Source of the DNA: Microbacteriaceae bacterium PS02332
GTDB taxonomy: Bacteria > Actinomycetota > Actinomycetes > Actinomycetales > Microbacteriaceae
Length of the DNA stretch: 32,977 nt
Assembly (NCBI GenBank): GCA_029959645.1
Contig: JASCOJ010000015.1
Span: 1-32,977, forward strand
Direction: 5' to 3'
Both the position numbers and the translations under genes were made by a program. The first letter of the stretch is position 1; every line of letters starts with the position of its first letter. Shown one piece after another: positions 8,963-9,872 of this stretch. The notes under the pieces were generated by a model, which worked only from the letters and a program-made list of their open reading frames with translations, was not told the origin of the DNA and searched no databases.

Positions 8963-8998
8963 CCGACGGCCCTCGTCCTCCGGGACGGGGGCCGTCGG
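8963..8998 (+). terminator. Intrinsic terminator hairpin after the WXG100-like pair
   Basis: A 16-bp stem (8963-8978 with 8983-8998, one T-G pair) closed by the tetraloop TCCG, 11 bases after the stop codon. There is no T-tract, as is common in high-G+C actinobacteria. Confidence 0.85.
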
Positions 8999-9028: not shown

Positions 9029-9109
9029 GCGAGTGTGGTGGAACGGTAGACACGGGGCACTCAAAATGCTCTGCCTCACGGCGTGCGGGTTCGATTCCCG
9101 CCACTCGTA
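9029..9109 (+). tRNA. tRNA-Leu(CAA)
   Basis: An 81-base class II tRNA. The acceptor stem is GCGAGTG (9029-9035) with CACTCGT (9102-9108), with a G-T first pair and discriminator A at 9109. The D-arm has GTG/CAC. The anticodon stem is 9055-9059 with 9067-9071, around loop CTCAAAA, with anticodon CAA at 9062-9064. The long variable arm (TGCC/GGCG) is typical of Leu, Ser and Tyr tRNAs. The T-arm is GCGGG TTCGATT CCCGC. CCA is not encoded. CAA reads the UUG leucine codon, a rare codon in such a G+C-rich genome. Confidence 0.95.
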
Positions 9110-9228
9110 CAAGGACGGCTCACGGCGTGCGGGGCTCCGCACACCGAGGTTCCCGCCACTCGTACAAGGACGGCTCACGGCGTGCGGGGCTCTGCACACC
9201 GAGGTTCCCGCCACTCGTACAAGGACGG
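9075..9228 (+). repeat. Tandem repeats of the tRNA-Leu 3' end (one partial, two 55-bp units)
   Basis: The tRNA 3' end plus nine following bases (9075-9118) is followed directly by two 55-bp units, 9119-9173 and 9174-9228. Each repeats the variable-arm/T-stem sequence CTCACGGCGTGCGGG and the 3' block TTCCCGCCACTCGTACAAGG plus ACGG. In both units the T-loop is replaced by an 18-base segment that starts a small hairpin, TGCGG-GGCT-CCGCA. The two units differ at a single base (C 9138, T 9193); the change turns a G-C pair into G-T and so keeps the hairpin. The layout resembles the rtT repeats behind E. coli tyrT. Confidence 0.92.
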
Positions 9229-9253
9229 CTCGGCACGCGGAACGTCGGTCTAG

Positions 9254-9259
9254 TAGGCT
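9254..9259 (+). promoter_or_regulatory. -10 box of the response regulator, leaderless type
   Basis: TAGGCT lies seven bases before the GTG start, so transcription should begin at or next to the start codon. There is no ribosome-binding site, which fits a leaderless mRNA. Confidence 0.6.
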
Positions 9260-9266
9260 CTCCGTC

Positions 9267-9872
9267 GTGAGTGACACAGAAGCAACTGCAACAGCACCGC
9301 GTCGCGTCGTCGTGGCCGAGGACGAGTCGCTCATCCGTCTCGACATCGTCGAGATCCTCCGCGACAACGGGTTCGACGTCGTCGGTGAGGCCGGTGACGG
9401 CGAGACCGCCGTGGCCCTCGCCACCGACCTGCGTCCCGACCTCGTCATCATGGACGTCAAAATGCCCCAGCTCGACGGCATCTCCGCGGCCGAGAAGCTG
9501 TCGAAGAACCACATCGCCCCCGTCGTGCTCCTCACCGCGTTCAGCCAGAAGGAACTCGTCGAGCGGGCGACCGAGGCCGGCGCACTCGCCTACGTCGTGA
9601 AGCCCTTCACCCCGAACGACCTGCTCCCCGCGATCGAGATCGCCCTCTCGCGGTACCAGCAGATCATCACGCTCGAGACCGAGGTCGCCGACCTCGTCGA
9701 GCGCTTCGAGACCCGCAAGCTCGTCGACCGCGCCAAGGGCCTGCTCAACGAGAAGATGGGCCTCACCGAGCCCGAGGCGTTCCGCTGGATCCAGAAGGCG
9801 TCGATGGACCGCCGCCTCACGATGCACGACGTCGCCAAGGCGATCATCGAGCAGCTCAGCGCGAAGAAGTAG
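9267..9872 (+). CDS. pdtaR: PdtaR-type response regulator with ANTAR RNA-binding domain
   Basis: A 201-residue two-component regulator that acts on RNA. The receiver domain (about 12-125) has the acidic pocket AEDE (17-20), phosphoacceptor D63 in VIMDVKMPQLDG, the conserved T90 in LLTAF and K112 in VVKPF. A coiled linker leads to an ANTAR domain (about 130-195: RKLVDRAKGLL, then LTEPEAFRWIQKASM). ANTAR domains bind paired hexaloop hairpins and prevent termination. The orthologue in M. tuberculosis (Rv1626, PdtaR) also lies near polA and is phosphorylated by the sensor PdtaS, which is not in this window. The start at GTG 9267 gives the family N-terminus and suits the leaderless promoter; frames upstream read into the tRNA repeats and are rejected. 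Confidence 0.92.
   Translation: MSDTEATATAPRRVVVAEDESLIRLDIVEILRDNGFDVVGEAGDGETAVALATDLRPDLVIMDVKMPQLDGISAAEKLSKNHIAPVVLLTAFSQKELVERATEAGALAYVVKPFTPNDLLPAIEIALSRYQQIITLETEVADLVERFETRKLVDRAKGLLNEKMGLTEPEAFRWIQKASMDRRLTMHDVAKAIIEQLSAKK

Follow-up and report, generated by a model that had tools for sequence, protein, structure and literature searches.

Single and tandem copies of tRNA 3' ends behind tRNA genes in Curtobacterium and other Microbacteriaceae genomes

The window, that is the whole stretch of DNA analysed, comprises 32,977 nt of Microbacteriaceae bacterium PS02332 (contig JASCOJ010000015.1, forward strand). It contains a tRNA-Leu(CAA) gene followed by two complete units built from the 3' part of that gene and by the start of a third, ahead of a gene for a response regulator with an ANTAR domain, with the following features in window coordinates.

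9029-9110, + strand: tRNA-Leu(CAA) gene, source of the copied tail (ARAGORN and Rfam, 9029-9110 / 9029-9109)
9110-9164, + strand: unit 1, 55 nt, with the count starting past the discriminator base (sequence comparison)
9110-9118, + strand: spacer of unit 1
9119-9133, + strand: tRNA-identical block of unit 1, 15 nt, variable arm and 5' strand of the T-stem
about 9134-9149, + strand: foreign middle of unit 1, replacing the T-loop
about 9150-9164, + strand: second tRNA-identical block of unit 1, from T-loop base 59 to the discriminator
9165-9219, + strand: unit 2, 55 nt, differing from unit 1 solely at 9193
9220-9231, + strand: start of a third unit, CAAGGACGGCTC, which breaks off
9251-9259, + strand: TAGTAGGCT, promoter-like box before the ANTAR gene, outside the units (putative promoter role)
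9267-9872, + strand: response regulator gene with ANTAR domain, the next gene, used as anchor for locus comparison

The earlier note, made from the letters of this DNA, had described two tandem 55-bp copies of the tRNA-Leu 3' end with the T-loop replaced, and the repeat search, ARAGORN and Rfam agree on this arrangement. Direct repeats were detected at 9095-9149 and 9150-9204 (98% identity, period 55 nt), and a third, partial repeat starts at 9205 (60% over 55 nt), with the match extending to about 9231. CTCACGGCGTGCGGG is present three times in the window, at 9075, 9119 and 9174. The single difference between the units that the note had reported, C at 9138 and T at 9193, is seen in the repeat alignment. 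Elsewhere in the same genome (G000) no units were found, the sole other match being 37 nt of a tRNA-Gly gene. At 8963-8998, 3' of the gene upstream of the tRNA, lies a terminator-like inverted repeat (16-nt arms, 94% complementary, 4-nt loop).

Named loci place the genome in the genus Curtobacterium. For comparison of the locus, 67 Curtobacterium genomes were searched and tRNA-Leu(CAA) was found in 66, all but G066 (73% complete), and the loci of all 65 relatives were collected and inspected. Counting as a 3'-end copy any match with at most 2 mismatches in 13 bases, at least one tail copy was found in 27/66 genomes, with a range of 1-7 and a total of 56 copies (39 genomes with 0, 14 with 1, 6 with 2, 3 with 3, 1 with 4, 2 with 5 and 1 with 7), so the copy-number change among relatives for which the note had proposed to look is present. 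The count of 1 for G003 is an underestimate, since its contig ends inside the array and a second contig end bears more units. The native T-loop occurs in none of the 56 copies. Truncated copies of 40-46 nt were found in G024, G025, G026 and G052, the last also with one 17-nt piece, and just the 5' block of a unit is left in G006, G009, G019 and G064. The stretch from the tRNA to the ANTAR gene measures at most 511 nt wherever it is unbroken, and a mobile element between the two genes was seen in none of the inspected loci (G003 being broken in the array). Since TAGTAGGCT is exact in 58/66 genomes overall and in 24/27 of those with units, this box is, judging by its distribution, independent of the units; a sigma-70 scan detected no promoter-like site.

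Folding of the 31-nt segment 9119-9149 yielded the small hairpin that the note had placed in the replaced T-loop segment (GTGCGG/CCGCAC around GGCT, z -2.69), and the full 55-nt units fold unremarkably (z -1.45 and -0.72). The note had also read the C/T difference as a hint of selection on RNA structure, and this reading is not supported by the comparison: the hairpin is not common to the units of the other species folded, no shared fold of the unit middle was found among units of 25 genomes, and the single-unit species G038, G047 and G065 carry uncompensated changes in the first T-stem pair. The same observations bear on a reading of the units as functional RNA, transcribed as the tRNA 3' trailer and yielding small RNAs or sponges like rtT RNA or 3'ETS-leuZ, which we consider improbable. 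The units do lie on the same strand directly behind the tRNA gene, their tRNA-identical blocks are retained while the middle diverges, and one compensatory-looking T-stem change was found in the tRNA-Leu(UAA) copies of G036 and a changed pair in a tRNA-Thr copy (both described below). The block conservation can also be explained by exchange with the tRNA, however, 39/66 genomes have no 3'-end copy at this locus, and Rfam found no match in the window except the tRNA. As judged from these comparisons, a functional RNA is unsupported as a role for the units, and a cell function is not needed to explain the data.

In Escherichia coli, tandem repeats of about 178 bp containing 19 bp of tRNA follow tyrT and are transcribed, giving rise to rtT RNA. 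The likeness is that repeats in tandem follow a tRNA gene and include a portion of its 3' end, whereas the units described here measure 46-65 bp and contain most of the tRNA tail. The 3'ETS-leuZ trailer sponge likewise derives from sequence directly behind a leucine tRNA gene, but it is not known to be a tandem tRNA-tail copy, and no sRNA partner is known for the units here.

Within a genome the Leu(CAA) units are 95.6% identical on average (44 pairs), compared with 78.4% between genomes (300 pairs, representatives of 25 genomes), and by this comparison the units are homogenised within genomes. G029 (0 units) and G062 (1 unit) have the flank after the last tail in common and are exactly one unit apart, and G056 and G015 form a second, less clean case of a unit difference. 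A single-gene tree, built from the first 900 nt or less of sequence counted from the ANTAR gene start and lacking branch support values, shows a patchy distribution of units and was used solely for that judgement. In being tandem, variable in copy number and homogeneous within a genome, the units resemble a minisatellite or VNTR; they differ in that the arrays are seeded by, and exchange with, a tRNA gene and that similar arrays lie behind several tRNA genes. T-loop base 59 is changed alike in tRNA-Leu(CAA) and in units, to T in G000 (both units) and to A in G039 (first of two units), and units of G040 and G065 have A at base 59 although their own tRNA is unchanged there. These sequence comparisons suggest that exchange is possible between a tRNA gene and the truncated tandem copies derived from it.

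The window array is not a one-off, since related copies lie at the same locus in other genomes and behind other tRNA genes. Tail copies of tRNA-Leu(UAA) were found in 12/67 Curtobacterium genomes, 17 copies in total; for both tRNA-Leu(UAA) and tRNA-Arg(CCT), sequences were inspected for 30/67 genomes each, and BLAST extents were used for the others. In G000 itself, tRNA-Leu(UAA) is also trailed by a copy that covers its 3' part starting with the anticodon arm and has an altered anticodon loop. The Leu(UAA) copies differ from their own tRNA by 1.12 mismatches on average and from shuffled partners by 2.06 (36 nt, p 0.0054), with the copies of G036 and G021 diverging from their own tRNA. One T-stem variant is found in tRNA-Leu(UAA) itself in G046 and is confined to the copies in G036, so on sequence grounds the T-stem of the G046 tRNA perhaps came from such an array by transfer from array to gene. 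tRNA-Arg(CCT) copies were found in at least 5/67 genomes, a lower bound, as the Arg query missed the junction-type units of G051. One copy lies in G024, one in G021 and two in G001, and G036 has 14 tandem 64-nt units (L619), all with C at base 37. The two Arg units of G051 are built differently, an insert of 11 nt separating the T-stem from the acceptor strand. Isolated tail copies were found at tRNA-Lys, -Gln, -Met, -Gly, -Thr and -Ala genes, and in G024 as many as six tRNA genes are trailed by copies (Leu(CAA), Leu(UAA), Lys, Gln, Met and Arg). Tandem unit sizes range over 46-65 bp, and gaps between tRNA and copy are about 10-140 nt.

Leucine tRNAs belong to class II. The tRNA-Leu(UAA) of the genus, as read here (L132, at G000:C106:4338-4411, - strand; L166-L195), is about 75 nt long with a variable region of 5 nt, and L132 is the sole UAA tRNA found in its genome; a literature search found nothing on a short tRNA-Leu(UAA) of Curtobacterium. 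Separately, tRNA-Glu(CTC) forms a whole-gene tandem pair in two Curtobacterium genomes (L124, L346).

A family-wide search with the window locus matched 374/398 genomes, a search that copies of other tRNAs would escape. Among the matches listed, those outside the genus all stop by base 104 of 212, and hence none of them is a close relative of the units. In a comparison of the kind that the note had proposed for other Microbacteriaceae, 65 named Leu(CAA) loci of other genera included 5 with a tail copy that is 14 nt or longer and lies no more than 400 nt away (three Plantibacter, Microbacterium yannicii and Naasia). As a further observation, strongly folding elements of about 120-140 nt are flanked by a tRNA gene on one side and by a copy of the final 19-24 nt of that gene on the other at L255 and L420 (M. 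yannicii), L256 and L546 (Naasia) and L152 (G353), and at L420 the hairpin after the tRNA recurs after the copy. A strand complementary to the copy is present above shuffled sequences in just 2/5 of these elements (p about 0.01 and 0.007; a third 0.08; two with none), and because of this no tRNA-like RNA is claimed for them. An msiK RNA match lies at 279-338 of the M. yannicii locus L407.

The polarity of copying was assessed in a survey of seven genomes (Curtobacterium G000, G024, G051 and G059; Plantibacter G455; M. yannicii G456; Naasia G457), comprising 310 distinct ARAGORN tRNA genes of 325 Rfam matches, the remainder having been not fetched or merged as duplicates. With a criterion of at least 14 nt of the tRNA 3' half within 200 nt downstream, a copy was found at 18/310 genes, and each of four controls (3' half upstream, 5' half downstream, 5' half upstream, antisense 3' half downstream) gave 0/310. 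The genomes were partly picked for carrying Leu(CAA) copies, and G024 also for its Leu(UAA) copy, and the fairer figure, leaving out the seven Leu(CAA) genes used in the choice, is 11/303 versus 0. An assembly artefact, which the note had held out as an alternative, is disfavoured by the related genomes that carry units, including arrays equivalent to that of the window in the single-contig genomes G051, G010, G005, G023 and G039; since, in addition, the units are unique in their own genome and the survey separates 18/310 from 0/310, both chance and artefact are unlikely as their origin.

For 15 copy families the breakpoints were read by eye. The start falls within the anticodon loop or the T loop in 13 of them, loops that make up 14 of 47 positions (P 8e-6); in one family it falls at the T/acceptor junction, and in the last one it precedes the T-loop by three bases. 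Copies of the anticodon type number 41 (Leu(UAA) 17, Arg 18, Lys, Met, Thr and three Plantibacter Leu(CAA)), and C is present in 40 of them, at base 37 or, for some Leu(UAA) copies, at base 36, the sole exception being in P. flavus; six loops (Lys, Met, Thr and the three Plantibacter) were read by eye and 35 by script. In the Arg copy of G024 the change to C at base 37 is the single difference in 50 nt. T-type copies are altered in the T-loop or in the strand that precedes it, with TTCGA intact in the Gln, Naasia Leu and junction-type G051 Arg copies. Base A58 in actinobacterial tRNAs is methylated and acts as a strong stop. A retrocopy of tRNA RNA with a modified base 37 misread was set aside, with A58 intact in the anticodon-type copies (except in one G036 Arg unit); it is further disfavoured by several units that repeat flank from outside the tRNA.

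Neutral tandem duplication, in which slippage or unequal exchange doubled the tail with a few flanking bases and drift and repeated slippage did the rest without any integrase, would account for much of this. It fits the copy numbers (0-7 at Leu(CAA), up to 14 at Arg), the homogeneity within genomes and the exact unit differences between them, the spacer that is repeated after several copies, and the copy-free Arg locus of G045, where the flank after the tRNA resembles the unit spacer and left arm of relatives. By itself, however, it leaves unexplained why only 3' parts are copied (0/310 for the 5' half upstream), why 13/15 families start in a loop, and why C stands at base 36 or 37 in 40/41 anticodon-type copies, and as a full account we regard it as unlikely, though deserving of weight.

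A tRNA with a displaced fragment is the signature of tRNA-targeting elements used by Islander, for which crossover subsites are given as the anticodon loop, the T loop and the T/acceptor junction, with 3760 islands bearing 3' fragments and 159 bearing 5' fragments, in the available portion of that source (PMC4383910). The tail copies resemble such islands in the prevalence of 3' fragments, in the placement of the fragment downstream in the same orientation, and in the breakpoints, which coincide with one of the three subsites in 14/15 families. They differ from the islands as portrayed there, in which 2-200 kb separate tRNA and fragment and 2 kb are required: here no integrase gene or cargo was found in the gaps of about 10-140 nt, tandem units go down to 46 bp, and the loop is altered in the copy. 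The length and integrase filters, as far as that portion describes them, would reject tail copies and so leave them unlisted.

Integration at one of the tRNA genes concerned is illustrated by the prophage-like viral contig IMGVR_UViG_3300042934_000878 (L497, L505), whose insertion site is a tRNA-Leu(UAA) of Curtobacterium-like sequence. One end of the contig bears the intact tRNA and the opposite end a fragment that matches it exactly from base 39 onward; a Phage_integrase gene lies about 450 nt away from this fragment, and the contig has a second integrase-like gene. Because intact tRNA, displaced fragment and nearby Phage_integrase occur together, tRNA-Leu(UAA) is, on this sequence evidence, evidently a real integration target. 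The sequence to the left of the fragment in this prophage bears no relation to the tRNA, whereas tail copies keep an anticodon-arm-like left side. No units were found in viral contigs, phages or plasmids; the one pattern match was the intact tRNA of the prophage, as the pattern also fits the native loop. Behind tRNA-Leu(UAA) genes with a differing neighbour gene, no island with a second tRNA fragment was found within about 20 kb (L336, L337, L338, L340); L339 carries a tRNA that departs from the query, and the stretches L341 and L342, which surround weak matches elsewhere, gave no match. In one further viral contig (L434), a phage-borne tRNA has behind it another T-arm and acceptor strand, in which the T-stem changes are paired. 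An actinobacterial precedent for crossover in the T-loop is phage Ms6, whose att site lies in the T-loop of a tRNA-Ala, with a core from the T-stem to the tRNA 3' end; Ms6 is a phage with an integrase, and no tandem tail copies are described in the available part of the source (PMC1762012).

The reading we favour, with about an even chance of being right, is that the units are attachment-site-like recombination relics at the tRNA 3' end, devoid of cargo and integrase. It is favoured because of the 3' polarity, the loop breakpoints, the real integration target in tRNA-Leu(UAA), the homogenisation, the G029/G062 pair and the similarity of copies to their tRNA. A copy of the tRNA tail would have been placed just downstream of the gene, broken at the T-loop, a tyrosine-integrase subsite (the breakpoint being observed, the enzyme putative), and we infer that an integrase made or shaped this first copy. 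Sequence comparison shows that units were then gained and lost in tandem, in this reading by unequal recombination or slippage, and it shows homogenisation and signs of the exchange with the tRNA that keeps the copies similar to its tail. Exchange inside the shared tail would leave the tRNA intact, so that an array could be gained or lost at little cost, and copies whose loop matches the tRNA may be excised by site-specific recombination, leaving the loop-altered ones. Of the three origins that the note had suggested, repeated integration leaving scars at the 3' end of the tRNA comes closest; the part that stands is that copies within the survey are only of the 3' side and start at known integrase crossover subsites, and the part that does not is a history of integration alone, since neither integrase nor cargo is present and the array is also minisatellite-like and exchanges with the tRNA. 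Several findings count against the relic reading: left of the breakpoint the copies are still tRNA-like (15 identical bases in the Leu(CAA) units), those units hold 15-20 nt in the place of an integrase overlap, which would measure 7, and flank repeats after the Lys, Arg, several Leu(UAA) and M. yannicii Met copies fit tandem duplication equally well. Against it stand also the copies that do not follow their own tRNA (G036, G021, G040, G065), the gaps free of integrase and cargo, and the lack of units in viral contigs, phages and plasmids.

Loop-altered tails might instead act as decoy attachment sites that keep the integrase-binding arms, cannot recombine and titrate integrases off the tRNA. 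In agreement with this, all 56 Leu(CAA) copies lack the native T-loop, base 36 or 37 is changed in 40/41 copies of the anticodon type, tRNA-Leu(UAA) is used by a phage, and the arrays are amplified and patchy. In Ms6, a one-base difference between the attP core and a tRNA T-loop prevented integration there, as stated in the part of the source at hand (PMC1762012), and because of this effect loop-altered copies would be poor integration sites. Integrase binding is putative, however, the 15-20 nt between the arms of the Leu(CAA) units are unlike a paired 7-bp site, and plain loss of matching copies would give an identical pattern; we consider the decoy reading highly improbable. The wider proposal that Microbacteriaceae keep amplified loop-altered tails as integrase-capturing decoys, or that one micro-element family moved in trans at many tRNA genes, is a long shot.

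A literature search found no description of such tRNA-tail arrays, with most subscription journals outside its coverage. In the seven surveyed Microbacteriaceae genomes (4 Curtobacterium, 1 Plantibacter, 1 Microbacterium, 1 Naasia), tail copies recur at tRNA genes and do so on one side only. Were the decoy reading true, they would protect passively against integrative elements, through nothing but the sequence of DNA sites. Part of a tRNA may, moreover, derive from an array of its own truncated copies.
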